A stretch of 64,000 nucleotides of DNA, from the NCBI GenBank assembly GCA_015143295.1, contig CM026554.1, forward strand, positions 26,691,215 to 26,755,214, written 5' to 3'. The stretch comes from Tetracentron sinense. Its lineage: Eukaryota; Streptophyta; Magnoliopsida; Trochodendrales; Trochodendraceae. This document shows, piece after piece, positions 9,066 to 59,544 of the stretch (position 1 is its first letter; each line of letters begins with the position of its first letter). The position numbers were made by a program, and so were the translations under genes. The notes beneath the pieces are model-generated. The model saw nothing but the letters and a program-made list of their open reading frames with translations, had not been told where the DNA came from and ran no database searches.

Positions 9066-9817
9066 CTCTGGAGAACCCTGTTCTTCCTCTCTACTACACC
9101 ATTCTGTTGAGGTGTAATAGGTGCAGAAAATTCATGTTTGATACCCGACTCATCCCAAAAGTCGTTGTACTTAGAGTTTTCAAACTCCTTTCCATGATCA
9201 CTTCGAATTCGAGTGATTGGGCATCTTTTCTCATTTTGAATTTTCAAGCAAATACTTTTGAAATTGTCAAAAGCATCGGATTTCTCTCTTATAAATGCCA
9301 CCCATGACATTCTTGAGAAATCATCAACCATGACTAGGATGTATCGCTTTCCACCTAGACTTTCAGTTCTTGTAGGACCCATAAGATCCATATGAATTAA
9401 TTCCAGTGGATATGAAGTAGCAATACTTGAAGTCTTCTTATGTGGGGTTCTAATTTGTTTACCAATTTGGCATGGCCCACACACAGCAGTAGAAGGCTTT
9501 CCTAGTTTGGGAACACCTCTCACAAGCTCTTGCTTAGAGATTTTACATAGGTCTTTGAAGTTCATGTGACCTAGTCTTCGGTGGCACAAATCAACCTCCT
9601 CAATTTTAGTCTTATAACAGACATTTAAGGGATTAGGACTGGGAGTTAAGCTGTAGCAATTGTCAGTGGTTCTCAATCCTTCTAGAACACACTTACCTTT
9701 ACCATTAATGACTAAGCATTTATTATGGGTAAAGTGCACAGCATGGTTATCATCACATAGTTGACTTATGCTAATTAAATTAGCTTTCAGTCCTTCAACA
9801 AACAAGGCATCTTTCAA
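9032..9817 (-). pseudogene. pol: E1 integrase, zinc-binding and catalytic core
   Basis: Contains a GAG-pre-integrase HHCC zinc-binding region (HRRLGHMNF ... CGPCQIGK). The catalytic core follows, with the D,D-35-E residues in HMDLMGP, RSDHGKEF and NGVVERKN. Integrase inserts the cDNA and makes the 5-bp duplications seen around E1. The ORF is out of frame with the protease upstream, apparently by one missing base at about 9815, and loses frame at its end. Confidence 0.92.
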
Positions 9818-11313: not shown

Positions 11314-11316
11314 TCA

Positions 11317-16333: not shown

Positions 16334-16567
16334 ATACTTTAGTATATGGTCATGAGAGGAGACTATAGCGTATCTATATCATTTTAGAGTATAGTAGATG
16401 CCCTAGTCGGTCTTCTTATCACTTGACTCACTTTTTAATGTATATATTTGTACGACATATATGATGGAAATGGAAATGGTAGTAACCCTATCACTACTAT
16501 GCCGGAACACGGGCATGTGATGAGATTGGAGAAGTTTAAGAGACTTGGACTGTAAGCCTTTTTAGGT
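16334..16567. other. Region upstream of the gypsy gag remnant
   Basis: Immediately right of the solo LTR duplication. Probably the leader and first codons of the decayed gypsy gag that follows; no clear frame. Confidence 0.35.
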
Positions 16568-35583: not shown

Positions 35584-35818
35584 GGTGCGTGAGCCCTAGT
35601 GTCTTGGTCTCCAAGTTTTAATAAAACTCCACCTTTTACATTTATGTTTCTTATTTACCAAGATTGGAATCTAATCCCATAATTTAAGGAGTTATTATAT
35701 AATAATTATTTAACAAACATAATCCTAATCTAATTAGGAAACTCTAAGTGGGCGCCCCACCCTAGGGTTTTATTCCATGGGCTTGGGCCCATTAATAAGG
35801 TCCATACTTTATGGGTTT
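35584..35818 (-). repeat. E7 right LTR, piece 3
   Basis: Collinear with 18445-18672 ('cttggtctccaagtttta', 'ctaagtgggcgccccacc'). Ends in the GGTTT target site of E5. Confidence 0.85.
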
Positions 35819-36033
35819 TGTAGCACCCCGGACTTTTTCATCCTTAATGAATAACACCTTCGTAGCTAATTGGCCATTTTTTTTTTAGTCTAATTAATAA
35901 ATAAGGGAGAAATCGGAAATTCCGAAACATCAGAAATGTTCGTTTTCGAAAGACGGATCCAACGCAAGTTGAATCGTCGAAATCGGACGAACGAGTCAAA
36001 AGATATGGTCAAAACAGTCGGGACCAGTAGAGC

Positions 36034-36218
36034 ACCGATCGCTCGGTCCACGGAGCGATCGATCGGTCCAAAACCGATCGATCGGTATCTATCGACTGGT
36101 GGAAAATTTTGTATGAGGAAATTTTCCAGAGAGCATGTTTTTGACCGGTCAATCGGTCAAGAACACCGATCGCTCGGTAGGAAACCGATCGATCGGTCAT
36201 TAACACCGATCGCTCGGT
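36034..36218. repeat. CCGATCG palindrome cluster, E5 5' LTR
   Basis: Seven copies (36034, about 36055, 36073, 36143, 36165, 36184, 36205) around the spacer GGAAATTTTCCAGAGAG. The matching cluster in the 3' LTR (46655-46798) lacks two units, about 40 bp. Confidence 0.9.
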
Positions 36219-37195
36219 CTTCGCGTTTTGCAAAAATTTCAGTAAGGGTGTTTTTGTCTTTTGGGTGTTAAACCCTTACCCATAAGGGTTCGCTCGACCC
36301 TTTGAGCCCTCATTCACAACCCTTAGACATTTTGAGAGCTAGAGAGTGAGAAGAAGAGGGTTTTGACCTAGGGTTTCCATTGAGGAAGAAATCAAAGGGG
36401 TGGACCATCCTAGGTCGTCCTCAAACTTGGATTTGCTTCAAGTTCAAGGCTCAAGCTCGTGTGGGAGCCACTCTCCAAGCTAGGGCAGCCATCTCACGTA
36501 CGTTTTGAAAGGGGTTTCTTCCCCAACTCGAGTCTTCCTCAAGCAAGGGTTGTTCCCTACCCTTTTGGAGCTTTAATCAAGTTTCCCACCAAGGATCAAG
36601 CCTTGAGCAAGGTTAGTGCACCCTACTAACTTACCCTAGCAATAAATCTAGGTTTTCCTTATGAAATGTGATTTATGCTATTATGTTTGCCTCCTATATG
36701 AAATGTATCATCTCCAATGAACCTAAATAAGATAAGAAAAGGGTATGAATGTGTGTGGGTGTTGATGTGGCGATTGGATGCCAAGATGTATGTTGTGTGA
36801 TGTGTGTGATGGAAATGGTGGATGGGTACTTTACCAATAATGAACTTACCTTGATGTTTGGATGGAAGATATGCGCTAAAAAAGAACACGATAAATCATT
36901 AAGAAACATTGCATGTGCTGTGTTTGACAAAATGCCTAAATTATGAATAAATGATCTAAAGGAAGAATATGGAAATGGGTTTTATGCATGCGTTCTTATA
37001 AACGATAAATTGATCAAATGTTATGCAAACTACTTATGTTACCTATGTTCATATCATGAATTGAATTGTAATGTCATATCTTGGTTATTCCCATTATCAT
37101 GATTGTCACTAGGGACACGTACACGAGCACGCATGATAGCATGAACCGAGATTTCAAGAGCATGTGCATATAATAAACAAGAAGAAAATATTGCA

Positions 37196-37550
37196 TGTCA
37201 AGGAGGTTGGTAGCCCAGGGAGGATTCGGGTACTAACCTCTGGCTCACAAGATAACCCCTAAAACACCTATTGTCAAGGAGGTTGGTAGCCCAAGGACAT
37301 TCGGGTGCTAACCTCTGGCTCACAAGAAAACTAAACAAGTAATAAAAATCACCTATTGTCAAGGAGGTTGGTAGCCCAGGGACATTCGGGTACTAGCCTC
37401 TGGCTCACAAGAAAACCAAACATTGCATATCAAGGAGGTTGGTAGCCCAGGGACATTCGGGTACTAACCTCTGGCTCACAAGTGCATTGCATATCAAGGA
37501 GGTTGGCAGCCCAGGGAGATTCGGGTGCTAGCCTCTGGCTCACAAGTTAC
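37196..37550. repeat. E5 LTR tandem array, five units
   Basis: Units of roughly 55-85 bp with 'aaggaggttggtagcccagg' and 'ctaacctctggctcacaag'. Repeated in the 3' LTR at 47766-48120. The solo LTR 38979-42077 carries 11 units of the same sequence. Confidence 0.92.
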
Positions 37551-38256
37551 GAGATGGAGGTTTACAAGATGATGATTATGCATTCATGCATGCACGCATA
37601 CATGATTTCTACGAGGCATACCGGGACATGACAGGGGTTTTCAAGCATGAGTTTTATCGGCGTTTTCGCATTCATGTACGCACGTCAGGATGCTTGTATT
37701 GTATCATGCCTTATACTGTTTCTTTTGTGATGTTTCTATTACTGCTTGTATGGTATTACTATTGTGTGTTTTTATTATTGTTATAGTCTGCTAGTAGCTT
37801 GTACTCGCTGAGTATTCCATGCTCAGTCGTACTTTCATGTCGGCAGGTACTGAGGGAGCCCTCGACCCGGAGCCTTGGGTCGAGGAAGAGTATATAGAGG
37901 AGAGAGAGCCGGCTATTCCATTACAGTCTCAGGCAGACCGAGACCTCGATGTGTGGCCATACCTCGACTACTGTTGAGGGGAGAGTATGAGAGGGTCTTG
38001 TGTATTTTGATAGGTGAGCCTGTCCACCTTAGACTTAGACATGTCTTGTATTTATGTTAACTTGGAATACTATTTTGGATCATCAGAAGAAATGAAAATT
38101 TGTTTAAGCTTCCGCATATATGTTAGCTTCCGCGCTCTGATTATCGTTGTTAGTACTGTATTTTATCTTGTGCATTACAGGATGGTTTGATAGGTACGTA
38201 GTGTGACACCTAAAATATCCCTAAACTCCTAAGGGGTATTTCGGGGCGTTACAGAG

Positions 38257-38268
38257 TGGTATCAGAGC
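38257..38268 (+). other. E5 primer binding site (tRNA-iMet)
   Basis: TGGTATCAGAGC, three bases after the 5' LTR; exact match to the usual plant initiator tRNA-Met primer site. Confidence 0.95.
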
Positions 38269-38580: not shown

Positions 38581-38978
38581 ATGAGACGCAATACCCGGGG
38601 TCGCGGGTACAACACGAGGGGTAATGGAGGTGATACTCCATCGGGTGATGATCAACCCGACTTTGCCCAAGCATTCGCATCCATAGCCGAGACTTTGGCA
38701 ATCGGCCATAAGGCAATCGGCCACTCCGCCTAATGCGGCACTTATACCGGCTCCTCCTAACCGAGCCCAAGCCGGGATAGAAGCTTTTCGGAGGATGAGG
38801 CCTCCAACTTTTTGTGGAAACATTGATCCACTTGTCGCCGAGGGTTGGATTCGGCAACTCGAGAAGATATTCTCGGTATTGGCACCTACGGAAGTGGAAA
38901 GGGTCACTTGGGCCGCCTTTATGCTTGAAGGCGAGGCCGACCATTGGTGGAAGTCTGCACTTCGGACCCGAGAGTTAA
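38581..38978 (+). pseudogene. gag: E5 gag, 5' part
   Basis: Starts MRRNTRGRGYNTRG at 38581, similar to the E4 Gag start. A frameshift near 38728 is followed by the retrotransposon Gag core (FRRMRPPTFCGN, AEGWIRQLEKIF, FMLEGEADHWW). It is cut at 38978 by a solo LTR. The frame on the other side (42083) is the same once the LTR and one target copy are discounted, so the insertion hit a still-open Gag. Confidence 0.9.
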
Positions 38979-39692
38979 TGTAACGCCCCGAAATACCCCC
39001 TAGGAGTTTAGGAATATTTTAGGTGTCACACTACGTACCTATCAAACCATCCTGTAATTCACAAGATAAAATACAGTACTAACAACGATAATCAGAGCGC
39101 GGAAGCTAACATATATGCGGAAGCGTAAACAAATTTTCATTTCTTCTAATGATCCAAAATAGTATTCCAAGTTAACATAAATACAAGACATGTCTAAGTC
39201 TAAGGTGGATAGGCCCACCTATCAAAATATCAAAATACACAAGACCCTCTCATACTCTCCCTTCAACAGTAGTCGAGGTTTGGCCACACATCGAGGTCTC
39301 GGTCCGCCTGAGACTGTAATGGAATAGCCGGCTCTCTCTCCTCTATATACTCTTCCTCGACCAAAGGCTCCGGGTCGAGGGCTCCCTCAGTACCTGCCGA
39401 CATGAAAGTACGGCTGAGCATGGAATACTCAGCGAGTACAAGCTACTAGCAGACCATAACAATAATAAAACACACAATAGTAATATCATACAAGCAGTAA
39501 TAGAAACATCACAAAAGGAACAGTATAAGGCATGATACAATACAAGCATCCTGACGTGCGTACATGAATGCGAAAACGCCGATAAAACTCATGCTTGAAA
39601 ACCCATGTCATGTCCCGGTATGCCTCGTAGAAATCATGTATGCGTGCATGCATGAATGCATGATCATCATCTTGTAAACCACCATCTCGTAA

Positions 39693-40400
39693 CTTGTGAG
39701 CCAGAGGCTAGCACCCGAATCTCCCTGGGCTGCCAACCTCCTTGATATGCAATGCACTTGTGAGCCAGAGGTTAGTACGCGAATGTCCCTGGGCTACCAA
39801 CCTCCTTGATATGAAATGTTTGGTTTTCTTGTGAGCCAGAGGCTAGCACCCGAATGTCCCTGGGCTACCAACCTCCTTGTTATGCAATGCACTTGTGAGC
39901 CAGAGGCTAGCACCCGAATGTCCCTGGGCTACCAACCTCCTTGTTATGCAATGCACTTGTGAGCCAGAGGCTAGCACCCGAATGTCCCTAGGCTACCAAC
40001 CTCCTTGTTATGAAATGCACTTGTGAGCCAGAGGCTAGTACTCGATTTTCCCTGGGCTACCAACCTCCTTGTTATGAAATGCACTTGTGAGCCAGAGGCT
40101 AGCACCCGAATGTCCCTAGGCTACCAACCTCCTTGTTATGAAATGCACTTGTGAGCCAGAGGTTAGTACCCGAATGTCCCTGGGCTACCAACCTCCTTGT
40201 TATACAATGCACTTGTGAGCCAGAGGCTAGCACCCGAATGTCCCTGGGCTACCAACCTCCTTGTTATGAAATGCACTTGTGAGCCAGAGGTTAGTACCCG
40301 AATGTCCCTGGGCTACCAACCTCCTTGTTATGCAATGCACTTGTGAGCCAGAGGCTAGCACCCGAATGTCCCTGGGCTACCAACCTCCTTGACATGCAAT
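39693..40400. repeat. Eleven-unit tandem array, about 63 bp units
   Basis: Each unit contains 'cttgtgagccagagg', 'cacccgaatgtccctgggct' and 'accaacctccttg'. It is the reverse complement of the five-unit array in the E5 LTRs, so array length varies within the family. Confidence 0.93.
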
Positions 40401-41390
40401 ATTTTCTTGTTGTTTATTATATGCACATGCTCTTGAAATCTCGGTTCATGCTATCATGTGTGCTCACGTGCGTGCCAATAATAACAATCGTGGGAATGCG
40501 CTTAACAAAAGAGATATGACATTACAATTCAATTCATAATATTAGCATAGGTAACTTAAGTAATTCACATGACATTGGATCAATTCATCGTCTATAAGAA
40601 CACATGCATAAAACCTATTTCCATTTTCTTCATTTAAACCATTTATTCATAGTTTAGGTATTTTGTCAAACACATAGTATGCAATTTTCCTTCATGGTTC
40701 ATTTCCATCCTTTTAGTGCATATTTTCCATTCAATCACACAAAGGTAAGTTTATTATTTGTGCAATGCCCATCCTCCATTATCCAACCCACAACCCACAC
40801 ATACCATACATCACCCATTCGGCATCCAATCGCCACATCCAACATTCCATCCACACATCCACATGTTTTCCATTATCTTGTTTATATTTAATGGAGGATA
40901 ACACATTTCATAAGGAGGAAAACATAATATAAAGAATCACATTTTTATATAGAAAACCTAGATCTTTGCTAGGGTAAGTTAGTAGGGTGTACTAACCTTA
41001 GATGAAGGCTTGATCCTTGGTAGAAACCTTGATTGAAGCTCCAACTTGAAAGAAGAACACCTTTGCTTGAAGGAGACTTGAGTTGGGGAAGAAACCCCTT
41101 TCAAAAACGTGCTTGGGTTGCTGCCCTAGCTTGGAGAACGCTCTCCATGAGTGCTTGAGCCGTGATTTTGGAGAAAAACCGGACTTGAAGTGATCTAGGG
41201 TCTCAAAACCCCTTTGATTCTTCTCCAAAAGAAAAACCCTAGCTTAGGAAACCCTTTCTCCTCTCTTCTAATCCCCCAAATCCTCTAAGTGTTGAGAATG
41301 AGCCCTAAAGGCTCGGGTTAAACTCTTAAGGTAAGAGTGAACCGACCAAAAGACCATAATACCCTTACTAAAATTTCTGCAAAAAACACG

Positions 41391-41665
41391 AGTGCTGAAC
41401 ACGTCGAGCTGTGAATAGTGCCAAACACGTTGTGCTGTGAATAGTGCCAAACACGTCGTGCTGTGAATAGTGCCAAACACGTCGTGCTGTGAATAGTACC
41501 GAACACATTGTGCTGTGAATAGTGCCAAACACGTTGTGCTGTGAATAGTGCCGAACATGTTGTGCTGTGAATAGTGCCGAACACGTTGTGCTGTGAATAG
41601 TGCCGAACACGTTGTGCTATGAATAGTGCCGAACACGTTGTGCTATGAATAGTGCCGAACACGTT
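41391..41665. repeat. Ten 26-bp GTGAATAGTGCC units
   Basis: Units read GTGCTGTGAATAGTGCC then GAACACGTT, with CTGTGAATAG a short inverted repeat. The array occupies the position of the palindrome cluster of E5 and is close to the arrays in the E4 LTRs. Apparent long ORFs over this array are repeat artefacts. Confidence 0.92.
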
Positions 41666-42082
41666 GTCACGTTGTCTTATGTACAATGTGCCCGTCGTGA
41701 GCTGTACAACGTACACGTTGTTTGCTGTACAACGTACATGTTGTCTGCGGCACAACGTACCCGTTGTCTATTGCACGACGTACCCGTTGTCTGTTGCACG
41801 ACGGCTGCACAACGTATACGTTATCAGAGCTAGAGCTACGTCCTTAGTGCCTTCTGAGCTACGATTGCCTGCAGGTCCAGACTGTTTTGGCCATATCTTT
41901 TGACTCGTTCGTCCGATTTTGATGATTCAACTTGCGTTGGGTTCGTACTTCGAAAAGGAACATTTCTGACATTTTGGAATTTCCAATTTCTTCCTTATTT
42001 ATTAATTAGACTACAAAAACGGCCAATTAGCTACGAAGGTGCTATTCATTAAGGATGAAAAAGTCCGGGGTGCTACAGTTAA

Positions 42083-42919
42083 CCCGGCGAGGTCAAGACT
42101 GGACTTGGGAAGAATTCTTGGAGGTTTTCAACAAGAAGTACTTTCCGGTCGGAATGAAAGAAAAGATGGAAGTCGAATTCATTACCTTGGAGCAAGGTAA
42201 TATGTCAGTAGCGGCTTATGAAGCCAAATTTTCGGAGCTATCTCGATTTGCTCCACACATGATAGTGACCGAGGCTATGAAAGCCCGAAAATTTGAGAGA
42301 GGATTGAAGGCTTACCTCAAGGACCGAGTCTCGATGTTTAGACATGAGATATATTTCGAAGTTGTTGATAAGGCACTTTTGGCCGAGTCAAACTCCGTGG
42401 AGTTTTTCAAAAGAAGAGAAATAGAGAAAGGACAGTCGAGTAGTTCAGGGGAGAAGAGAGCAAGGACTAGCTTGTATCAGTCCGCAGGGCCGGCTCAGTC
42501 ACAGAGGATGTATTCGGCACCACAGGCTCCTCGCTCTTTTGCTCCATCGACCTTTCGCCCGGATACCTCATATGCTCCTCGCCCCGTAGTTACTCAAGCT
42601 ATGGGATATGCTCCTTCCTCCTATTTGCATGATGTCTGCACTCTTTGTGGAATGAGGCATCCAGCAGGAGAATGCCGGAGGGTTTCAGGAAGTTGCTTCC
42701 ATTGTGGTGACCATGGTCACATGGTTAGAGATTGTCCCCGACGTCAATTGCCAGCTCAGTCTTCGAGGAGCAGGCCCCCGATTTGGCAGACATCTCAGCC
42801 TAGCTCTTCTCAGGCTTCGAGGGCCTCACAGTCTATCCGGCCTCCTCGCCCAGCCACACAGGGCCGAGTCTTTGCCTTATCCGAGAGAGACGCACGTGCA
42901 TCCGACGATGTCGTGCAAG
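42083..42919 (+). pseudogene. gag: E5 gag, 3' part with zinc knuckle
   Basis: Continues Gag after the solo LTR: TWEEFLEVFNKKYFPVG, LEQGNMSVAAYEAKFSEL, RKFERGLKAYLKDRV, then a Ser/Pro/Arg-rich tail and the CCHC knuckle CFHCGDHGHMVRDC (about 42696-42738). It ends VFALSERDARASDDVVQG at an AAG/GTACGC junction that I read as a splice donor. If unspliced, the frame runs five codons further and stops at TAA 42934-42936. Confidence 0.93.
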
Positions 42920-43055
42920 GTACGCAAAAATTCTAAAGTCTAAGTTGTGTAAAATTTCTATGGTTTATTATGTGATTATTTATACTAAGGGTTATTCTAT
43001 GTATGATGCTTGTGATTGTTTGAAATCTACTAATAGTAGTTACTTAATCGCATAG
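42920..43055 (+). other. Intron-like segment at the E5 gag/protease junction
   Basis: 136 bp, starting GTACGC and ending ATCGCATAG. T-rich, with a TACTAAT branch-like motif at 43028-43034, about 22 bases before the acceptor. Gag and protease are in different raw frames; removing exactly these 136 bases puts them in one frame (phase 1, inside a Gly codon). The result matches the uninterrupted E4 sequence, where the same Gly codon is continuous. This is an inference from sequence; transcript evidence would settle it. Confidence 0.75.
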
Positions 43056-43534
43056 GTGCTTTATTAGTGAACGAGTGTCTCGCCCGTGTGTTGATCGACA
43101 CAGGATCCACTCACTCCTTTGTGTCACCTAGTTTCACAAAGGGATTTTTGACTGAGTCTACTCCGTTAGAGCGGGAGTTGACCATTGCAACTCCACTCGG
43201 CAAGTTAGTTGATACGGACAAGATATTCAGGGATAGTGTGGTTCAAGTGGGGGAGAATGAACTGTTAGTCGATCTCATCGTCCTAGCTTTTCAAGACTTG
43301 GATTTTGATGTCATCTTAGGGATGGATTGGTTGTCAAACCATCACGGGAATGTTGCATGTTTTGAAAAGATGGTGAATTTCAAGCCGGAAGGAGTTAAGC
43401 CTTTTCATTTCCGAGGATTGAGAGAAAGGGATATTGCTCGCCTTGCAGCTTTGAGCTTAGCGAACCCCGAAGTACAAAACTCCTCGAGGAACTTCCCGGG
43501 TTACCTCCGAATCGGGAGATTGAGTTCGCTATAG
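43056..43534 (+). pseudogene. pol: E5 aspartic protease
   Basis: Retropepsin-type active site [11 protein letters not shown] at about 43088-43120, flap and core to [14 protein letters not shown] (43309-43350). The frame is lost near 43485, where the E4 counterpart has about a dozen more codons ([10 protein letters not shown]), so a small deletion plus frameshift is likely. Confidence 0.9.
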
Positions 43535-44607
43535 AGCTTACTCCGGGCACCGCTCCGATTTCAAGAGCCCCATATAGAATGGCCCCGATAGAGCTTGAAG
43601 AATTGAAGAAGCAAATTGAGGAGTTACAACAACTTGGTTTCATCCAACCAAGTGTGTCACCGTGGGGAGCTCCGGTCCTTTTTGTAAAGAAGAAAGACTA
43701 GTCAATGAGAATGTGTATAGACTACCGTCAGTTGAACAAGGTAACTATCAAGAATCGTTATCCCTTGCCAAGGATTGACGACTTGTTCGACCAACTGAAG
43801 GGAGCGAGATTCTTCTCCAAAATTGATCTTAGATCGGGGTATCATCAATTAAGGATCAAGGCGGAAGATGTTCCGAAGACGGCTTTCAGGACTCGGTATG
43901 GGCATTACGAGTTCCTTGTCATGCCTTTTGGGCTGACGAATGCACCGGCGGCATTCATGGATTTGATGAACCGGGTGTTCCGATCTTACTTGGATCGATG
44001 CGTGATTGTATTCATTGATGATATTTTGGTGTATTCCCAGACACGGGAAGATCACGCACGAGACCTCCGCCTTGCCCTGGATATGTTGAGAGAGCATAGG
44101 CTATATGCCAAATTGATTAAGTGCGAGTTCTAGTTAGAGAAGGTCGCATTTCTTGGACACGTGGTGTCGGCCGAGGGCATTTCTGTAGATCCAGCCAAGG
44201 TTGAGGCAGTCATGAGTTGGGAGAGGCCCAAGAGCGTCACGGAGATATGTAGTTTCCTTGGATTGGCAGGCTACTACCGGAGATTTGTGGAGGGATTCTC
44301 CAGTTTGGCTGCACCTCTCACCTACTTGACAAGGAAAAATGCAAAGTTCAGTTGGAGTGACCGATGTGAAGTAAGTTTCCAAGAGTTGAAGAAACGCCTC
44401 ACCACAGCCCCTGTCCTTACTGTGCCATCTGGACCTTTTGGGTATGAGGTGTATAGTGATGCCTCGCATGTTGGACTCGGGTGTGTCCTAATACAACACA
44501 AGAAGGTCATTGCCTATGCATCAAGGCAGTTGAAAGAGCATGAAAAGAACTACCCCACTCACGACTTGGAGCTTGCGGCGGCCGTGTTTGCACTTAAAAT
44601 TTGGTGA
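43484..44607 (+). pseudogene. pol: E5 reverse transcriptase and RNase H start
   Basis: After the frameshift: [29 protein letters not shown], a TAG at 43699-43701, then the RT core: [31 protein letters not shown], the catalytic [10 protein letters not shown] (about 44011-44040), a TAG at 44131-44133 replacing Trp, then [16 protein letters not shown] and RNase [12 protein letters not shown] with [13 protein letters not shown] at 44605-44607 replaces Arg. Confidence 0.93.
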
Positions 44608-45288
44608 CATTATCTGTACGGGGTGGAGTTCTATGTATACACGGACCACAAGAGCCTCAAGTATCTCTTTTCCCAAAAAGAGCTAAACTTACGACAATGG
44701 CGTTGGATTGAGTTCTTAAAGGACTACGAGTGCACTATCCAATATCACCCGGGAAAAGCAAATGTGGTGGCAGACGCTCTGAGTAGGAAACCATCGGGGT
44801 TGTTGGCTCACATGTTGGTGCGGGAATGGAGACTGTTAGACAATTTGGCAAATCTAGACATCAGTGTGAATGATTCTGTCCGCAGTCCGGTTTTGGCAAA
44901 TGTTACGGTTCGGCCGTACCTTATAGACTTGATCCAGGAGTATCAAGCCACATACACTGACTTGTTGGCTTTCCGGGATAAGGAAGTGGCCAAGGGTAGT
45001 ACGGACTTCTCTCTCACTAGCCAAGGTGCTATTACATTCAAGGGAAGGCTTTGTGTCCCAGCCAATGCAGACCTTCGGAGAGAGATTATGGACGAAGCTC
45101 ACCGGTCTAAGTATACAGTGCATCCCGGGGGGACAAAGATGTATCGGAACATCAAGAGTCACTTTTGGTGGCGAAACATGAAGAGGGAGGTTGCGGAGTA
45201 TGTGGCACGGTGTTTGGTGTGCCAACAGGTGAAAGCAGAGCATTTGAGACCGGCGGGTCTTTTGCAGTCTCTCCCTATTCCCGAGTGA
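44608..45288 (+). pseudogene. pol: E5 RNase H end and integrase zinc-binding domain
   Basis: [17 protein letters not shown] and VVADALSRK complete RNase H. The HHCC domain follows, with [25 protein letters not shown], and [18 protein letters not shown]. Ends at TGA 45286-45288, which replaces the Trp of the usual PEWKWE motif. Confidence 0.93.
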
Positions 45289-46346
45289 AAATGGGAACAT
45301 ATCTCTATGGACTTCATCGTGGGGTTGCCGAAGGCGGTTAGGAAGACCGATGCTATATGGGTAGTTGTTGATAGACTCACGAAGTCCGCTCATTTCTTAC
45401 CGTACCGGACTACATTCAACTCCAATCAGTTAGCGGAGCTATACATCAAGGAAATAGTCCGATTACACGGGTGCCAGTGAGTATTGTGTCGGATAGAGAC
45501 CCAAGATTCACATCCAGGTTTTGCAAAAGTTTTCAAGGTGCAATGGGCTCCCGGTTAGACTTTATCACAGCTTTCCACCCATAGACCGACGGGCAAACCG
45601 AGAGGGTGAATCAGGTTATTGAAGATATGCTCCGAGCATGTATGCTAGACTTCGAGGGAAGTTGGGAAGATCACCTACCTTTGGTGGAATTCGCTTACAA
45701 CAATAGTTATCAAGAAAGCATACAAATGGCGCCTTTCGAGGCTTTGTACGGAAGGAGTTGTAGATCCCCGTTGTATTGGGATGAAGTGGGAGAAAGAAAG
45801 ATTTTGGGCCCCGAGTTAATTGAACAAACCACGGATAGGGTCAAGCTTATCCGGGAGAGGTTAAAGACCGCACAAGATAGACAGAAAAGCTATGCCGACA
45901 ACCGAAAGAGGGATCTTGAATTCCGAGTCGGTGATTTTGTGTTTGTAAGGATTTCACCGACCAAAGGTGTTATGCGATTCGGGAAGAGAGGCAAGCTTAG
46001 CCCGAGATATGTGGGTCCGTTCGAGATCATTGCTCGAGTTGGTGAGGTAGCTTACCGGGTTGCTTTACCCGCTCATATGGCGGCGGTCTACAACGTGTTT
46101 CACATCTCCATGCTCCAGAACTATATCCCGGATCCTTCACATGTCGTCGAACTTGATACGATAGAGATCCGAGAGGACCTCACGTTGGTTGAGAAGCCGA
46201 TTCACATATTGGATCAAAGAGACCAAGTGCTTCGCAACAAGACTATACCGCTAGTCCTAGTGCAATGGCAACATCACGCGAGAGAAGAAGCCACATGGGA
46301 GCGTGAAGCCGAAGTCAAAGCAAAGTATCCTGAGTTGTTTGAATAG
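45289..46346 (+). pseudogene. pol: E5 integrase core and chromodomain
   Basis: The DDE core has MDFIVGLPK (first Asp), a one-base frameshift near 45470, [11 protein letters not shown] (second Asp), a TAG at 45582-45584 in place of Gln, then [10 protein letters not shown] (Glu). From 45606 the frame is open: FEALYGRSCRSPLYWDE, FVRISPTKGVMRFG, GPFEIIARVGEVAYR. It ends with a chromodomain (HILDQRDQVLRNK, VLVQWQHHAREEATWE) and the terminal YPELFE. The chromodomain is the hallmark of chromoviruses and is thought to target heterochromatin. Confidence 0.93.
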
Positions 46347-46438: not shown

Positions 46439-46654
46439 TGTAGCACCCCGGACTTTTTCATCCTTAATGAATAGCACCTTCGTAGCTAATTGGCCGTTTT
46501 TTTTTTTAGTCTAATTAATAAATAAGGGAGAAATCGGAAATTCTGAAACGTCAGAAATGTTCATTTTCGAAAGACGGATCCAACGCAAGTTGAATCGTCG
46601 AAATCGGACGAACGAGTCAAAAGATATGGTCAAAACAGTCGGGACCAGCAGAGC

Positions 46655-46798
46655 ACCGATCGCTCGGTCCACGGAGCGATCGATCGGTCCAAAACCGATC
46701 GATCGGTATCTATCGACTAGTGGAAAATTTGTATGGGGAAATTTTCCAGAGAGCATGTTTTTGACCGGTCGCTCGGTCAAGAACACCGATCGCTCGGT
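46655..46798. repeat. CCGATCG palindrome cluster, E5 3' LTR
   Basis: Five copies; lacks the 'aggaaaccgatcgatcggtc' unit and one neighbour found in the 5' LTR. The deletion endpoints fall within palindrome copies. Confidence 0.88.
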
Positions 46799-47765
46799 CT
46801 TCGCGTTTTGCAGAAATTTTAGTAAGGGCGTTTTCGTCTTTTGGGTGTTAAACCCTTACCCATAAGGGTTCGCTCGACCCTTTGAGCCCTCATTCACAAC
46901 CCTTAGACATTTTGAGAGCTAGAGAGTGAGAAGAAGAGGGTTTTGACCTAGGGTTTCCATTGAGGAAGAAATCAAAGGGGTGGACCATCCTAGGTCGTCC
47001 TCAAACTTGGATTTGCTTCAAGTTCAAGGCCCAAGCTCGTGTGGGAGCCACTCTCCAAGCTAGGGCAGCCATCTCACGTACGTTTTGAAAGGGGTTTCTT
47101 CCCCAACTCGAGTCTTCCTCAAGCAAGGGTTGTTCCCTACCCTTTTGGAGCTTTAATCAAGTTTCCCACCAAGGATCAAGCCTTGAGCAAGGTTAGTACA
47201 CCCTACTAACTTACCCTAGCAATAATTCTAGGTTTTCCTTATGAAATGTGATTTATGCTATTATGTTTGCCTCCCATATGAAATGTATCATCTCCAATGA
47301 ACCTAAATAAGATAAGAAAAGGGTGTGGATGTGTGTGGGTGTTGATGTGGCGATTGGATGCCAAGATGTATGTTGTGTGATGGAAATGGTGGATGGGTAC
47401 TTTACCAATAATGAACTTACCTTGATGTTTGGATGGAAGATATGCGCTAAAAAGAACACGATGAATCATTAAGAAACATTGCATGTGCTGTGTTTGACAA
47501 AATGCCTAAAATATAAATAAATGATCTAAAGGAAGAATATGGAAATGGGTTTTATGCATGCGTTCTTATAAACGATAAATTGATCAAATGTTATGCAAAC
47601 TACTTATGTTACCTATGTTCATATCATGAATTGAATTGTAATGTCATATCTTGGTTATTCCCATTATCATGATTGTCACTAGGGACACGTACACGAGCAC
47701 GCATGATAGCATGAACCGAGATTTCAAGAGCATGTGCATATAATAAACAACAAGAAAATATTGCA

Positions 47766-48120
47766 TGTCAAGGAGGTTGGTAGCCCAGGGAGGATTCGGG
47801 TACTAACCTCTGGCTCACAAGATAACCCCTAAAACACCTATTGTCAAGGAGGTTGGTAGCCCAGGGACATCCGGGTGCTAACCTCTGGCTCACAAGAAAA
47901 CTAAACAAGTAATAAAAATCACCTATTGTCAAGGAGGTTGGTAGCCCAGGGACATTCGGGTACTAGCCTCTGGCTCACAAGAAAACCAAACATTGCATAT
48001 CAAGGAGGTTGGTAGCCCAGGGACATTCGGGTACTAACCTCTGGCTCACAAGTGCATTGCATATCAAGGAGGTTGGCAGCCCAGGGAGATTCGGGTGCTA
48101 GCCTCTGGCTCACAAGTTAC
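47766..48120. repeat. E5 3' LTR tandem array, five units
   Basis: Counterpart of 37196-37550 with the same five units in the same order. Confidence 0.92.
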
Positions 48121-49316
48121 GAGATGGAGGTTTACAAGATGATGATCATGCATTCATGCATGCACGCATACATGATTTCTACGAGGCATACCGGGACATG
48201 ACAGGGGTTTTCAAGCATGAGTTTTATCGGCGTTTTCGCATTCATGTACGCACGTCAGGATGCTTGCATTGTATCATGCCTTATACTGTTTCGTTTGTGA
48301 TGTTTCTATTACTGCTTGTATGGTATTACTATTGTGTGTTTTTATTATTGTTATGGTCTACTAGTAGCTTGTACTCGCTGAGTATTCCATGCTCAGCCGT
48401 ACTTTCATGTCGGCAGGTACTGAGGGAACCCTCGACCCGGAGCCTTGGGTCGAGGAAGATTATATAGAGGAGAGAGAGCCGGCTATTCCATTACAGTCTC
48501 AGGCGGACCGAGACCTCGATGTGTGGCCATACCTTGACTACTGTTGAGGCGAGAGTATGAGAGGGTCTTGTGTATTTTGATATTTTGATAGGTGGGTGTC
48601 GCGACCCAAAACCCACCCTAGGAGTTAGAGTGAACTTTGGACGACTAATCATGACTTGCTTGACAAACCAACCTGCAAAAACCACAGAGTATATACAATA
48701 GAGGACAAAACAGCAGAAACATACTCTAACATGGTATAGCGGAAGTCTACCAAACTTCTATGTATATACATAAGCAATCCAAGTTTATACAAAAAGAATC
48801 CAAAAGAAAGTGCGGACATGCCCGCCAGAATACATGAATCTGACTCTCATCTCACCCACAGCTAATCCACTCAGAATCTAACACCACCTACTGATAACCC
48901 TCTACGGGAGGTTCCTCCAAAGGCTCCTCGACATACTCCTCTTCCTCCCATGGGCCAGGAGCACACACATCAAATGGAGCAGCAGCTCCCTCAGAACCTG
49001 CCGACATGAGAAGTACGGCTGAGCATGGAATACTCAGCGGGTACTAAGCACTAACCAACAGTCATAGCATACGGATAGCATACATAAAGCAGGAACAATT
49101 CATATATGTTAGAAGGAAACAATTCATATCATACAAGGAAGTAAAGCAGTTTATAATCATGCTTGTAATTCGTAGAAAGCCGATAAATCCTCTTGAAAAC
49201 ATCGTGCACTTGACTTGACTTGAAATATCTTTTCATACTTGAAAGCTTGTCTTGCCTATCTTGCTTGATTCTTGTATGTCGTGTCATGTCATGCATGCTT
49301 GCTTATGATCATGTAA

Positions 49317-49500
49317 CTTGTGAGATACACTTGTGAGATGCGCTTGTGAGATGCGCTTGTGAGATGCCTTGAGAGGGAAGGGAGACCCTTCTTTATGCAA
49401 TGCACTTGCGAGGGAAGGGAGACCCTTCTTCATGATATGTATGTACTTGCGAGGGAAGGGAGACCCTTCTTCATGATATGCACTTGTGAGTGAGGGGAGA
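49317..49500. repeat. E4 LTR short tandem repeats
   Basis: Three 'cttgtgagatgcg' units followed by four units with 'gagggaagggagacccttct'. Counterpart at 57155-57338 in the other LTR. Confidence 0.8.
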
Positions 49501-50349
49501 CCCCTCGTGGAATGTTGGTTCTTGTCTTCTTGTGAAAAGCGAGGTAAAACATATCTTAGGATATGTCCCACCTCTAACCATGTTCTTGAAAACCTCGATA
49601 AATCATGCCATGCATGCCGTGCTCGTGGGAAACGTGTACATACTTGCATTCCAATTTAAAGATGACATTTGGGTAATTTCACAACACATATAGTATCAAA
49701 GATTGAGCAATTCAATATTCATAGAATTTAGGGAAAGCAGGAAACACACTATCATAGGCCCTAGCAATATTCAGAATTTCTTAGGTATGCATTTCCTAAT
49801 TCACAGCTCACTTTATTCACCTTGGCATTTCATCAAACATGGTGTGTTCATTATGGATTTACCCTACAAATGCTTTTCTAGATGAGTTTTACTCAAATCA
49901 TACATGTATGTTCATTATTGGAACAATGCCCTTTCCCATTTGTTCATCACACACAACCATTGGCATCCAATCGCCCATTCCATCTCCATTCACCATTCAC
50001 CATTTACAACCCATCTCATAATACATTTGTAAATGAAAGGAAAATCAAAAGAAAAGAAAGGGAAAGAGGAACTATAACTAGGAGGGTAGTAAGAAGTACC
50101 GACCTTGAAGAAATGGGGAAGAAACCCTCGTTCCAAATGACTGTGAGTTACTGCCCTAGCTTGGATCGCGAGCTCCACAATGCCTGAATCGAAATCTTGA
50201 AGAAAACGGGCTTGAGGTTGATCTAGGGTTTCAAACCCTTTGATTTCTCTCCAAAGTGTCGAATGATGCCCTAAAGGCTCGGGTTAAACTCTTAAGGTAA
50301 GAGTGGACCGACAAAAGACCATAATACCCTTACTGGAATTACTGTACAG

Positions 50350-50905
50350 CCACGAATGCTGAACACGTTGAGCTGTGGACAGTGCTGAACCCGTGGTGCT
50401 GTGAACAGTGCCACTCGTTGTGCTGTGAATAGTGCCAACTCATTTTGCCGTGAATAGTGCTGAACACGTTGTGCCGTGAACAGTGCCGAACCCGTGGTGC
50501 TGTGAACAGTGCCACTCGTCGTGCCGTGAATAGTGCTGAACACGTTGTGCCGTGAACAGTGCCGAACCCGTGGTGCTGTGAACAGTGCCACTCGTCGTGC
50601 CGTGAATAGTGCTGAACACGTTGTGCCGTGAACAGTGCCGAACCCGTGGTGCTGTGAACAGTGCCACTCGTTGTCATTGTGTTGTGCATAGTGCTGAGCT
50701 CGTTGAGCTGTGAACAGTGCCAACTCGTGGTGCTGTGAACAGTACCAACTCATGGTGCTGTGAATAGTGCTAAACACGTTGTGCCGTGAACAGTGCCGAA
50801 CCCGTGGTGCTATGAACAGTGCCACTCGTTGTGCCGCGAATAGTGCTGAACACGTTGTGCGTTGTGTTGTGCATAGTGCTGAGCTCGTTGTCCGTTGTCT
50901 CATGT
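50350..50905. repeat. E4 3' LTR GTGAACAGTGCC array
   Basis: About twenty irregular units of 22-26 bp, GTGCTGTGAACAGTGCC alternating with 'gaacccgtg', 'actcgt' and 'gaacacgtt' linkers. They sit where the solo LTRs of this family have CCGATCG palindromes. Higher-order repeats of about 78 bp are visible at 50440-50660. Confidence 0.9.
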
Positions 50906-51400
50906 ACCACGTGCCCGTTGTTGTAGTACAACGAACCCGTTGTTGTTGCACAACGTACCCGTTGTTGTTGCACAACGGATGCACGACGCATACGTTATCA
51001 GAGCTCGAGCTACGTTCTCAGAGTACGTTGTCTGTGCTACGTTATCAGAGTACGACGTCAGAGCACGTCCTTAGTGCCTTCTGAGCTACGTCCTTAGTGA
51101 CAACCGAGCTACGTCCTCAGTGCATAACCGAGCTACGTCCTCAGCGCATAACCGAGCTACGTCCTCAGCGCATAGCCGAGCTACGTCCTGCCTGCAGGCC
51201 CAGACTGTTTTGGCCATATCTTTTGACGCGTTCATCCGATTTTGACGATTCAACTTGCGTTGGGTTCGTACTTCGAAATGGAACATTTCTGACATTTCGG
51301 AATTTCCAATTTCTTCCTTATTTATTAATTATACCTCTTTAAGGGCAAACTGGCAACGAAAATGCCATGCATTAAGCATGAAAAAGTCTGGGGCTATACA

Positions 51401-51413
51401 TCCTCCCCCCCTT
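51401..51413 (-). other. E4 polypurine tract
   Basis: AAGGGGGGGAGGA on the minus strand, adjoining the 3' LTR. Confidence 0.9.
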
Positions 51414-51512
51414 ACAAAAATTTCGTCCTCGAAATTTGGACGGGACATGCATTACAGAATCAAAACAAAAATACAAGCCACATATACAAAACCTATACAC
51501 AACTCATTCAAT

Positions 51513-52136
51513 TTATTCTAGGTACTTTGCTTTGACTTTGGCTTTACGCTCCCATGTAGCTTCTTCCCGAGCATGGTGCTGCCATTGCACAAGAACCAAA
51601 GGGATTGTCTTGTTGCGAAGCACCTGATCTCTTCTATCCAAAATCTGAACCGGCTTTTCAATCAAGGTGAGATCCTCTCGAATCTCCAACGGTTCCAAGT
51701 CTATGACATGCGAAGGATCCGTAATGTACTTCCGAAGCATAGACACATGGAAGACGTTATGAATTGCAGCCATGTGAGGTGGGAGAGCTACCCTGTAAGC
51801 AACCTCACCAACTCGTGTGATAATCTCAAAAGGCCCAACATACCGAGGACTGAGCTTGCCTCGCTTTCCAAATCTCATGATCCCTTTGCTAGGAGATACT
51901 TTCACAAAAACTTGATCCCCTACTTGAAATTCCAAGTCCCTACGGCGCGTGTCCGCATAACTTTTCTGGCGATCTTGAGCGGGTTTCAATCGATCCCGAA
52001 TGATCTTAACTGTGTTTGCAGTTTGCTCAATCAATTCTGGACCAAGTAATTTCCTTTCTCCTACCTCATCCCAATAGAGAGGAGACCTACAACTTCGCCC
52101 ATACAAGGCCTCAAATGGTGCCATTTGGATACTTGC
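51513..52136 (-). pseudogene. pol: E4 integrase C-terminal region and chromodomain
   Basis: FEALYGRSCRSPLYWDE, DQVFVKVSPSKGIMRFG and GPFEIITRVGEVAYRVAL precede a chromodomain (VQILDRRDQVLRNK, VQWQHHAREEATWE). Ends YLE and a stop. Separated from the core by TAG at 52137-52139, which sits where E5 has Gln (NNSYQ). Confidence 0.95.
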
Positions 52137-52637
52137 CTAATAGCTGTTATTATAGGCGAATTCAACCAAAGGCAAGTGCTCTTCCCAACTACCTCTGAAA
52201 TCCAACATATAAGCCCGAAGCATGTCTTCAATGACTTGGTTCACTCTCTCGGTTTGTCCATCCGTCTGTGGATGAAAAGAAGTGCTGAAATCAAGTCGGG
52301 AACCCATAGCCTCCTGGAAGCTTTTCCAGAATCGTGATGTGAATCTTGGATCCCGATCTGACACAATACTAACGGGCACTCCGTGCAACCTCACCACTTC
52401 CTTGATGTATAGAGTGGCCAACTGGCTAGAGTTGAAAGTAGTTCGGTAAGGTAAGAAGTGAGCGGACTTCGTCAAACGATCCACTACTACCCATATCGCA
52501 TCTGAGCCCCTTGCCGTCCTTGGCAAGCCAACTATGAAATCCATGGATATGTTCTCCCATTTCCATTCGGGAATAGGAAGAGAATGCAATAGACCTGCCG
52601 GCCGCATGTGCTCTGCCTTCACCTGTTGGCACACTAA
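52137..52637 (-). pseudogene. pol: E4 integrase catalytic core
   Basis: [15 protein letters not shown] leads into MDFIVGLPR (Asp), [15 protein letters not shown] (Asp) and [16 protein letters not shown] (Glu). All three catalytic residues are kept. Preceded by TGA at 52638-52640, which replaces the first Cys of the zinc-binding CxxC pair. Confidence 0.95.
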
Positions 52638-53054
52638 TCATCGTGCTACATATTCCGCAACATCCCTCTTCATATTCCGCCACCAAAAGTGACTCTTGAG
52701 GTTCCGGTACATCTTCGTACCCCCTGGATGCACAGTATACCTTGCCCGGTGGGCTTCATCCATAATCTCTCTCCGAAGATTTCCATTGGCTGGAACACAC
52801 AGCCTTCCCTTGAATGTGATAGCCCATCGGCTAGTGAGAGAGAAGTCCTCACTACCCTTAGCAACTTCCTTGTCCCGATAAGCCAACAATTCAGCTTCTG
52901 TGGCTTGATATTCTTGGATCAAATCTATAATGTACGGCCGAACTGTAACATTTGCCAAGGTAGGACCACGGACAGAGTTATTCACACTGATGTCCAGATT
53001 TGCCAAATCTTCTAGTAGTTTCCATTCTTGAACTAACATATGTGCTAACAACCC
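52638..53054 (-). pseudogene. pol: E4 linker and integrase zinc-binding domain
   Basis: Begins after the TAA at 53055-53057. Contains the RNase H-integrase linker, then the HHCC histidines in [19 protein letters not shown] and the following [10 protein letters not shown]. Confidence 0.9.
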
Positions 53055-54119
53055 TTAAAGTCTTCTACTCAAAGCATCGGCCACTACATTCGCTTTACCC
53101 GGGTGGTATTGAATGGTACAATCATAGTCCTTCAGAAATTCCATCCAACGCCTTTGCCTTAGATTCAGCTCCTTTTGGGAAAAGAGGTACTTGAGACTCT
53201 TGTGATCGGTAAATACATAGAACTCCACCCCATAAAGGTAATGACGCCAAATCTTAAGTGCAAACACAACTGCCGCAAGCTCCAAGTCGTGCGTGGGATA
53301 ATTCTTCTCATGCTCCTTCAACTGCCTTGATGCATAGGCAATGACTTTCTTGTGCTGCATGAGTACACACCCAAGTCCAACGTGTGAGGCATCACTATAC
53401 ACCTCATACCCATAAGGTCCAGATGGCACAGTAAGGACCGGGGCTGTAGTAAGCCTCTTCTTCAGTTCCGTGAAACTGATCTCGCACTTATCACTCCATA
53501 CAAACTTGGCGTTCTTCCTTGTCAGGTAAGTGAGCGGTGCTGGAAGGCTAGAGAAACCCTCTACGAATCTCTTGTAGTAGCCTGCCAATCCAAGAAAACT
53601 GCGTATCTCAGTAACACTCTTGGGCCTCGCCCAACTCATAACTGCTTCGATCTTCTTCGGATCTACCGAGATACCTTCTGCAGAAACAACGTGGCCTAGG
53701 AATGCCACCTCTTCCAACCAAAACTCACACTTGCTAATTTTGGCGTATAGCTTGTGCTCTCTTAGCATTTCCAAAGCAAGGCATAGGTCGCGTGTGTGAT
53801 CTTCCCGTGTCTGGGAATAGACCAAAATGTCATCAACAAATAAAATCACGCACCTATCAAGATATGGCTGGAATACCCGGTTCATCAAATCCATAAAGGC
53901 TGCCGGCGCGTTCGTGAGTCCAAAAGGCATCACCAAGAACTCGTAGTGTCCATACCGAGTCCTGAAAGCAGTTTTGGGAACATCTTCCACCTTAATCTTC
54001 AACTGGTGATAACCCGATCGAAGATCTATCTTCGAGAAAAATCTCGCTCCCTTCAACTGATCGAACAAGTCGTCAATCCTAGGCAATGGATACCTATTCT
54101 TTATAGTGACTTTGTTCAA
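53055..54119 (-). pseudogene. pol: E4 reverse transcriptase and RNase H
   Basis: 354 codons: [42 protein letters not shown], catalytic [26 protein letters not shown]; RNase H with [22 protein letters not shown] and [10 protein letters not shown]. The frame is intact between TAA 54120-54122 (in place of the Gln of DYRQLNK) and TAA 53055-53057. Confidence 0.95.
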
Positions 54120-54887
54120 TTACCGGTAATCGACACACATCCACATCGAGCCATCTTTCTTCTTAACAAACAACACTGGGGCACCCCATGGTGAGACACT
54201 TGGTCGAATGAAGCCAAGGCTTTGTAATTCTTCCAACTGAGTCTTTAACTCTTTGAGTTCAATAGGGGCCATTCTATACGGAGCCCTGAAAACAGGAGCT
54301 GTGCCTGGTGCAAGCTCGATCATAAACTCAATCTCCCTCTCTGGAGGCAATCCTGGCAACTCCTCCGGAGATACATCCAGGAAATCACTCACAACCGGAC
54401 TAGTCGATGAGTCCTTTGCCTCGGGGTTAGCTAAGCTCAACGCCGCAAAACGAGCAATAGATCTGCTTTTCAACCCGGGAAAGTGGAATGGTTTTCCTTC
54501 TACTGGCTTGAAGAGTACTATTTTCTCAAAGCAAGCTACATGCCCATGATGTGCTGCTAACCAATCCATTCCCAATATAACGTCAAAGTCTTGGAATCCA
54601 AGGACGATGAGATCAACTGCCAACTCGTGGCTTCCAGCTTGGACCACACCATTTCTATACACTTTATCTGCCAATACTGTTTTGCCAAGAGGAGTCGAAA
54701 TGGCTAACTCCGGTTCTAGCTGACTTGGTTCTACAGAAAAGCCTTCTGCAAAACTCGGCAAGACAAACGAATGAGTAGACCCGGTATCAATCAACACTCG
54801 AGCCAAATACTCATTGACTAGTAGGGTTCCTTGCACTACATTGTCAGATGCAAGTGCATCACCCTCTGTCAAGGCAAAAACTCGCCC
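54120..54887 (-). pseudogene. pol: E4 aspartic protease and start of RT
   Basis: [15 protein letters not shown] joins Gag to the protease [11 protein letters not shown], then [15 protein letters not shown] and the RT approach ([29 protein letters not shown]). Gag and protease are continuous here: the Gly codon split by the intron-like segment in E5 is uninterrupted. Confidence 0.95.
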
Positions 54888-56075
54888 CTAGTTTGCCTGG
54901 CGAGACTGAGGTGTAGACCGGGTAGTCTGAGATGACGCCTGATATGATCCTGCTGGGCGTGCTGGTGGACTAATCCCCTGAGACTGGCCCGGTAAATGCC
55001 GACTGGGGCAATCCCTGATCATATGGCCCTGGCGACCACAATGAAAACATCCACCCGATGCTCTTCGACAATCTCCTGCCGGGTGCCTTCGGCCGCATGA
55101 AGTGCAGACCTCGTGTGCATAAGTCGGAGGGGCCGGAGGTGGAGCATACCTCATCGTCTGAGGTGCAACAAGCCGTGGGGCTGGAAGAGCCTGAGGTCGT
55201 GGTGCCTGAGGCACATACTGCTGAGGAGCTGGAGGCGCATAAGTTGGCCTCATCGGTGGTGTTGGCCATGTATACTGATAAGGGCCTGTACGAGTTCGCC
55301 TCTCTGAAGGTGCTGAACTACTAGCTTGGCCTCTTGCCAACTCCCTCTTCTTGGACACTGTCTCTGAATTGGCCTCGACCAATAAGGCCTTGTCTACTAC
55401 CTCAGGGTAGGTAGTATGTCTGCAGACCGAAACCTTCTCCATGATAACATCTTTGAGCCCTTGATCAAACCTTCTTGCCTTCATTGCCTCAGTAGCAACC
55501 ATATGAGGCGTAAATCTCGACAACTCCGAGAACTTGGTCTCGTATTGTGCCACCGACATCAAACCTTGTTCAAGGTTGATGAATTCTCTCTCTTTCCTTT
55601 CCCGTGCTCCAATCGGAAAATACTTCTTGTAAAAAGTATCCTTGAACTCCTCCCAAGTCCAAGGTAGACCCTGCATGGTCAGATCTCGCATCCTCAATGC
55701 GGACAACCACCAATGGTGGGCTTCACCCCCTAGCATGAAAGCTGCCCATGCTACTCTCTCCTCCTCTGTAGGCGAGAGGACCGCAAAGACCTCCATCTGG
55801 AGGATCCATGCCTCCGCAGCAAGAGGGTCCACACTCCCATGGAATGGTGGAGGCCTCAATCTCCTGAATGCCTCAACTCCAGCGGTACGATGTACTGGAG
55901 CTGCGGGCGGTGGAGTAGGTGCCGCCGACGATGGTATAGCTTGCCGAGCCGCCAGTATGGCGTGTGTCTCAGCAATAGAGCCTAAGACCTGAGAGAGGTC
56001 CGGCTGCTCATCCTCATCTCTGGAAGAAGATGAAGCTCTGGTGTGTGGTCCACGACCCCGCGTGCCCCGCCTCAT
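54888..56075 (-). CDS. gag: E4 Gag
   Basis: 395 residues from ATG 56073-56075 to TAG 54888-54890. Basic N-terminus (MRRGTRGRG), Gag core about 75-250 (FRRLRPPPFHGS, FMLGGEAHHWW, FYKKYFPIGARE, INLEQGLMSVAQYE), a Pro/Ala/Tyr-rich tail, and the CCHC knuckle CFHCGRQGHMIRDC (about 55013-55054). By comparison with E5, the terminal TAG replaces Gln, so this Gag is a truncated Gag-Pol rather than a natural end. Confidence 0.95.
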   Translation of the reverse strand: MRRGTRGRGPHTRASSSSRDEDEQPDLSQVLGSIAETHAILAARQAIPSSAAPTPPPAAPVHRTAGVEAFRRLRPPPFHGSVDPLAAEAWILQMEVFAVLSPTEEERVAWAAFMLGGEAHHWWLSALRMRDLTMQGLPWTWEEFKDTFYKKYFPIGARERKEREFINLEQGLMSVAQYETKFSELSRFTPHMVATEAMKARRFDQGLKDVIMEKVSVCRHTTYPEVVDKALLVEANSETVSKKRELARGQASSSAPSERRTRTGPYQYTWPTPPMRPTYAPPAPQQYVPQAPRPQALPAPRLVAPQTMRYAPPPAPPTYAHEVCTSCGRRHPAGDCRRASGGCFHCGRQGHMIRDCPSRHLPGQSQGISPPARPAGSYQASSQTTRSTPQSRQAN

Positions 56076-56418
56076 GACTAAAGTCCTGAGAACAATAGCA
56101 TCACATGAGTCTCACTTGAAACCACAGTTTATTTCAATGTCGTTTCATAATAATTCAATTTGTATTAGTTAAATAATACTAATATACATCACATCAAGTC
56201 ATCAGAGCATTCATCACATTATACTTATACTTTATGTTCTAGCGTACCTAGGACTCGTACTTGGTTGAAACAACCATTTTGACTAAGACTAAAATTTAGT
56301 CTTACGCTTGGATCAAGACTCTCTTCCGACTTACTTTCTTCCTAACTTGTTTCCTGATATATGCTCTTGTCAAGCCGTGGTATAAGATTCTAAGTGACCC
56401 TAGAGACCTAAAGCCTAG

Positions 56419-56430
56419 GCTCTGATACCA
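56419..56430 (-). other. E4 primer binding site (tRNA-iMet)
   Basis: TGGTATCAGAGC on the minus strand, four bases from the 5' LTR. Confidence 0.95.
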
Positions 56431-56434
56431 CTTC

Positions 56435-59300: not shown

Positions 59301-59305
59301 TGGGC

Positions 59306-59539
59306 CTGTCCACCTTAGACTTAGACATGTCTTGTATTTATGTTAACTTGGAATACTATTTTGGATCATCAGAAGAAATGAAAATTTGTTTAAGCTTCCG
59401 GATATATGTTAGCTTCCGCGCTCTGATTATCGTTGTTAGTACTGTATTTTATCTTGTGCATTACAGGATGGTTTGATAGGTACTGAGTGTGACACCTAAA
59501 ATATCCCTAAACTCCTAGGGGGTATTTCGGGGCATTACA
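59306..59539 (+). repeat. E5 3' LTR, terminal part
   Basis: Collinear with about 38015-38253 ('cctgtccaccttagactta' to 'ttcggggcattaca'). Completes E5; followed by the GGTTT duplication. Confidence 0.93.
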
Positions 59540-59544
59540 GGTTT

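Follow-up and report, generated by a model that had tools for sequence, protein, structure and literature searches.

Plant LTR retrotransposons generally lack introns, the exceptions given in a review being Ogre and EVADE (PMC12786077). Several described elements can be set beside the 136-bp segment considered here, which lies between gag and protease of a chromovirus-like element named E5. The Ty1/copia element BARE1 of barley carries a U-rich intron of 104 nt, whose U content is 24 points above that of its flanks (PMC3735527). As a short U-rich intron at the gag/protease boundary it is close to the E5 segment in place and size; however, its polarity is opposite, since the BARE1 intron is coding, unspliced RNA giving Gag-Pol and spliced RNA giving Gag alone (PMC3735527). 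In EVD/ATCOPIA93 (shGAG) of Arabidopsis splicing likewise separates the production of Gag from that of Gag-Pol, but this element is a copia, its intron is tied to premature polyadenylation, and the spliced RNA gives Gag and the unspliced RNA Gag-Pol (PMC8892269). Bianca, another Ty1/copia element, has two ORFs with a gap averaging 172 bp, from which its authors infer that it has its own strategy of polyprotein expression (PMC6317226). It belongs to a different superfamily from E5, and the passages on Bianca in that source describe no splicing (PMC6317226). Ogre, from the Tat lineage of Ty3/gypsy, joins gag-protease to RT through partial splicing and has the polarity that is proposed below for E5 (PMC6317226). 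Nevertheless, Ogre is not a chromovirus, and its intron lies between gag-protease and RT, in a region averaging 274 bp (PMC6317226). The E5 segment was found in another place, between gag and protease. An earlier reading made from the letters alone (hereafter the sequence-only reading) had drawn an analogy to splice control in Ogre and in an Arabidopsis copia. In polarity the analogy holds for Ogre and is reversed for the copia, as spliced EVD RNA gives Gag alone.

CRR of rice is a centromeric chromovirus. Its RNA is spliced, which removes RT and makes two ORFs; this differs from the case of E5 in that the splicing described in the source involves no gag/protease segment (PMC3735527). In chromoviruses of Beta vulgaris gag and pol were found in one continuous frame (PMC3605345). 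In the open-licence literature covered, no description of a gag/protease intron was found for Tekay or any other chromovirus. For chromoviruses with a continuous frame the question arises of how more Gag than Pol is made.

Structure and decay of the host element

E5 was found on the + strand of the window, which is the whole stretch of DNA analysed (64,000 nucleotides, from Tetracentron sinense). It is a chromovirus-like LTR retrotransposon of the Gypsy kind with the domain order gag-PR-RT-RH-INT (Pfam), as for a chromovirus (Ty3/gypsy). Its chromodomain (PF00385) was matched with E 1.3e-4 and 22.3 bits, under the cut-off of 25.1. The name Tekay comes from the sequence-only reading and is a putative placement. 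The two LTRs share 97.8% identity over 1829 columns and 96.7% over a further 361 (self-BLAST), and the primer-binding site is presumably of the initiator-tRNA-Met type. The 3' LTR stands in two parts because a second element, E4, sits inside it between copies of its target duplication GTGGG, and E5 is therefore the older insertion. The coordinates of all features are collected in Table 1.

Table 1. Features of E5, of the candidate intron and of the elements nested in E5 (window coordinates).
Feature	Position	Strand	Basis
E5 target-site duplication GGTTT	35814..35818 (left); 59540-59544 (right)	+	flanking sequence
E5 5' LTR (TGTAGCACCCC...GTTACA)	35819..38253	+	self-BLAST, ends read
Primer-binding site TGGTATCAGAGC	38257..38268	+	sequence
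E5 gag, N-terminal part, frameshift between about 38703 and 38753	38596..38978	+	tblastn of P0002
Solo LTR from the E5 family, inside E5 gag	38979..42077	-	self-BLAST
E5 gag, C-terminal part, Retrotrans_gag and CCHC knuckle	42078..42919	+	Pfam 42079-42918
Candidate 5' splice site AAG/GTACGC	42917..42925	+	4th of 264 GTs, element body
Candidate intron, 136 bp, phase 1, GT...AG, 73% AT	42920..43055	+	sequence, E4 comparison
TAA at which Gag (...VVQGTQKF) would end with the segment in place	42934..42936	+	frame reading
CTAAT resembling a branch point; its A (43033) lies 22 nt ahead of the 3' end	43030..43034	+	motif
Candidate 3' splice site AG, CGCATAG/G	43054..43055	+	12th of 349 AGs, element body
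Protease exon, RVP_2, DTG at 43097	43056..43534	+	Pfam
Remainder of pol with RT, RNase H, integrase and a weak chromodomain	43535..46346	+	Pfam
E5 3' LTR, first part	46439..48596	+	self-BLAST
Element E4, nested in E5 3' LTR, target duplication GTGGG	48597-59299	-	
E5 3' LTR, remainder past E4	59305..59539	+	sequence

The copy of E5 in the window is dead, being interrupted by a nested solo LTR and damaged by a frameshift, stops and a 40-bp deletion. The solo LTR is flanked by the target duplication GTTAA (38974-38978 and 42078-42082). The deletion, seen against E4 at 43485/43486 just past the protease, shifts the frame and leads to a stop at 43534. Further stops were found in pol at 43699-43701 and 44131-44133, and open stretches also end at 44607 and 45288. 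Since E5 is dead, regulated splicing cannot be shown by this copy itself.

Two smaller observations concern these regions. The solo LTR contains a 64-bp tandem array at about 39764-40531 and a 26-bp array at about 41391-41667. Two protein relatives, P0017 and P0018, likewise end shortly past the NP motif near the position of the 40-bp deletion.

The segment and the reading frames across it

The base make-up of the segment is 31% A, 42% T, 10% C and 18% G. Its T content lies 17 points above that of gag (25%, 42079-42919) and 13 points above that of the protease (29%, 43056-43534), and none of the 3855 other 136-bp windows in 42079-46340 reaches at least 72% AT. The letters at its boundaries are CAAG/GTACGC...CGCATAG/GTGC. 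Because AGGT occurs at the left and the right end alike, the position of the 136 bp is fixed only to within five equivalent placements, and one of these gives GT-AG. Splice sites were ranked with approximate weights. On these weights the score of the candidate donor is equalled by 1.2% of the + strand GTs in the window, and the candidate acceptor is only fair, as about 11% (10.8%) of the + strand AGs score as well. Two AGs inside the segment, at 42989 and 43039, score at least as high as the proposed acceptor; the AG at 43039 follows the branch A by only 6 nt. GT...AG together with a branch-like motif was found in 0.014% of the 7122 stretches of the window with at least 70% AT, and in 0.02% of 127,500 overlapping 136-bp stretches (both strands, E5's own included), although the latter rarity is an unfair test of a duplicating insertion because insertion at AGGT makes GT-AG by itself. 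As would be expected of a candidate U2-type intron, GT...AG falls at the exact homology boundary, the branch motif lies at a workable distance, and the segment is T-rich relative to its exons.

Comparison with E4 defines the junction. E4 matches E5 over 51192-54823 with 76% identity (BLASTN) and reads straight through from gag to protease, gapless against E5 on both sides, though an in-frame stop lies 20 codons upstream of its continuous junction. At 16487-17766 (+ strand) a more distant gag-protease likewise has a junction without the segment; it carries a stop a few codons upstream of the junction and a frameshift in gag. To the left of the segment E5 reads SDDVVQ-G and to the right ALLVNE, with zero residues gained or lost relative to E4. 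The C-terminal part of gag closes on the first base of a Gly codon which the segment splits, and the length of the segment is not a multiple of three. Removal of the segment puts gag and protease in one frame. If the segment is retained, the stop is reached after five codons, the split Gly counted. In all these points the anatomy claimed by the sequence-only reading was confirmed: the T-rich GT...AG segment, the branch-like motif, the continuity of E4, the joining of Gag and protease within a split Gly codon, and the early stop upon retention.

The frames inside the segment bear on how a full Gag-Pol could be made. Four stops interrupt the gag frame (42934, 42973, 43021 and 43045) and eight the protease frame (42941 to 43037); the third frame is open until 43053. 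Moreover, the first ATG in the protease frame lies at 43322, beyond the active-site DTG. Because of the stops in both frames and the late ATG, a single frameshift, readthrough and AUG restart all fail for the protease, and recoding across the segment was disfavored as a candidate by the same stop pattern. With these routes ruled out on the frames as read, splicing is the ordinary route that would be left to Gag-Pol. If a full Gag-Pol was ever made with the segment in place, it would therefore most simply have been made through removal of the segment.

Codon comparison with E4 gave a dN of 0.05 and a dS of 1.4 for RT (133 codons). Identity is 73% for the protease (135 codons) and 57% for the C-terminal part of gag (276 codons), where dS is saturated and dN/dS is therefore not given. 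These values fit a protein that worked on either side of the segment through most of the lineage's history.

The segment was also considered as a repeat or a terminal-inverted-repeat element. This candidate was rejected: no other copy occurs in the window (best other BLASTN match E 0.21), and no terminal inverted repeat was found on the segment, which has only an inner 13-bp palindrome.

Age and origin of the segment

Relatives of E5 were collected in three protein searches, which admitted only proteins of limited length and gave 78 proteins; in the third, scoring was confined to the 7985 candidates with the most words in common. The nearest gag is P0001, a protein of 247 aa from a 942-bp ENA contig, which is 57% identical to E5 gag by BLASTP and 62% in the alignment. 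Its C-terminus reads ...ASDDVVQGT SSQSFITAWY, so that it departs from the protease at the junction codon of E5, and its record ends 10 residues past the junction, at either a stop or the contig edge. The tail was matched through degenerate codons in all registers and compared with shuffled sequence. Against the E5 and E4 proteases the best scores were 23 and 25 of 36, whereas 200 shuffles gave a mean of 23.0 and a maximum of 26; a frameshifted protease was rejected as the source of the tail, since this match is at chance level only. Against the E5 segment the tail scored 23, which is also at chance level, and it therefore neither supports nor excludes a shared intron sequence. The departure of E5 and of this one protein at the same codon is the main evidence on age, and suggests that the interruption may be old. 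The sequence-only reading had named a random insertion unique to E5 as the case that would speak against an intron, and P0001 weakens that case.

We favor, with a probability of roughly 0.57, the reading that the segment is a spliceosomal intron of the lineage, whose unspliced RNA would give Gag and whose spliced RNA would give Gag-Pol. RNA that retains the segment would yield Gag alone because of the stop reached after five codons; once the segment is lost, the RNA would yield the Gag-Pol fusion. Splicing would be partial, and the ratio of spliced to unspliced RNA would set Gag:Pol. The unspliced RNA would be the packaged form, because the E5 insertion, flanked by its target-site duplication, still carries the segment. 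The intron interpretation given by the sequence-only reading is thus supported in its anatomy, while splicing stays a candidate. Against an intron, the segment is known from one DNA copy and has a mediocre 3' splice site; a target duplication of 4 bp would likewise leave AGGT on either side. If the reading is correct, an intron at gag/protease would be a direct and testable answer to the Gag:Pol question for one lineage. It would combine the polarity of Ogre with the position of BARE1 in a chromovirus-like element, for which such control of the protein balance would be new. It would also be a case of intron gain inside a retrotransposon whose intron has to survive an RNA stage.

The 4-bp duplication leads to the alternative that by chance a small AT-rich piece, left over from a mobile element or from filling during repair, inserted at AGGT in E5 or a recent ancestor and duplicated four bases, GT...AG following automatically and nothing being spliced. 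This chief alternative is possible, though rather unlikely. The AGGT ends with their five equivalent placements fit such an event, as do the merely fair acceptor and a P0001 tail that is unlike the segment. E5 is moreover a decayed copy (nested solo LTR, 40-bp deletion, frameshift, several stops), so that one more lesion would be unsurprising. However, a chance piece does not predict a branch motif at the right distance together with a donor in the top 1.2% of the window, it is hard to match with the lack of a terminal inverted repeat and of a second copy in the window, and P0001 departs at the same codon.

Recoding at gag/pol is used by many retroelements. It is conceivable from this general knowledge that the segment is a spacer peculiar to this lineage which separates gag from pol without being translated and is bypassed by frameshift, stop readthrough or internal initiation on pol; the open third frame speaks in favor of this. 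Such a spacer is nevertheless very improbable, as several stops in the gag and protease frames would require two separate shifts, no ATG precedes the active site of the protease, and the segment shows ordinary RNA folding (z -0.33). Somewhat less improbable, but still hardly to be expected, is a real intron with another role, which would be removed constitutively or would serve RNA export or evasion of silencing, Gag alone being made otherwise. The frequency of removal is not readable from sequence, which leaves room for this role. Constitutive removal would be expected to lose the segment at the first retrotransposition, yet a two-LTR insertion flanked by its target-site duplication keeps it, an argument that fails if the segment came after the insertion of E5. 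The partly spliced intron setting Gag against Gag-Pol is retained here as the preferred reading, which is plausible and has gained some strength but is short of proof.

The junction in wider relatives

The 78 relatives were compared with P0033, in which gag and protease are continuous. In 10 of them (P0040, P0035, P0003, P0036, P0051, P0055, P0001, P0034, P0049, P0052) the match to this reference stops between -3 and +6 residues from the junction Gly. Named plant protein records make up nine of the ten; P0035 and P0040 carry the label partial, and P0052 extends a few residues into the protease. Two further relatives, P0005 and P0009, jump from the junction Gly to downstream pol sequence. The relatives that end at the junction or skip it come from genera such as Camellia, Castanea, Persea, Juglans, Momordica and Dionaea. 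The junction motif was matched in 38 of the 78 proteins and these were sorted by eye, several being false or truncated matches; 18 of the 38 run on into the protease. Match ends are even more numerous (16 of 78) 30-41 residues upstream, directly after the zinc knuckle, which shows that their clustering has more than one cause. The cluster at the junction is thus a lead, short of proof, to a putative latent splice donor within the VVxGT codons.

A broader proposal may be built on this lead, namely that a plant chromovirus lineage sets Gag:Pol by a partly spliced gag/protease intron and that the conserved coding motif V-V-x-G-T at the junction is a latent 5' splice site in a large part of the group. 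The intron would then have formed through capture of the latent V-V-x-G-T donor site. This proposal is tentative and, taken as a whole, unlikely.

In P0003, P0005, P0009, P0034, P0036, P0049, P0051 and P0055 which are plant gag records from several genera, the sequence ends or changes course at the Gly or a few residues from it, as if at a latent donor. P0017, from a 740-bp contig, has a protease 73% identical to that of E5 and starts at a Met before LIDTG, about ten residues past the junction. This start fits an interruption upstream, but it is no evidence for one because it may be the choice of the gene caller.

Other collections were searched as well. Viral contigs gave no relative with E5 protease, P0001, E5 RT, the protease alignment A4 or the E4 RT-RNase H piece as queries, and the plasmid collection gave no match to P0001. 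A scan of genome contigs returned a single protease match, of 47%, on a Streptomyces record, and this was left out of the analysis. Retroelement gag/protease sequences were also seen under bacterial names (L001 1-3816, P0041 and P0029); the names concerned are a Streptomyces clavifer contig, Salmonella enterica and an uncultured Caballeronia, and contamination is the probable source. Elsewhere in the window, a copia-type element with integrase and RT motifs recognized by eye lies on the - strand at 4585-12164, with an extra downstream frame at 4585-5832.
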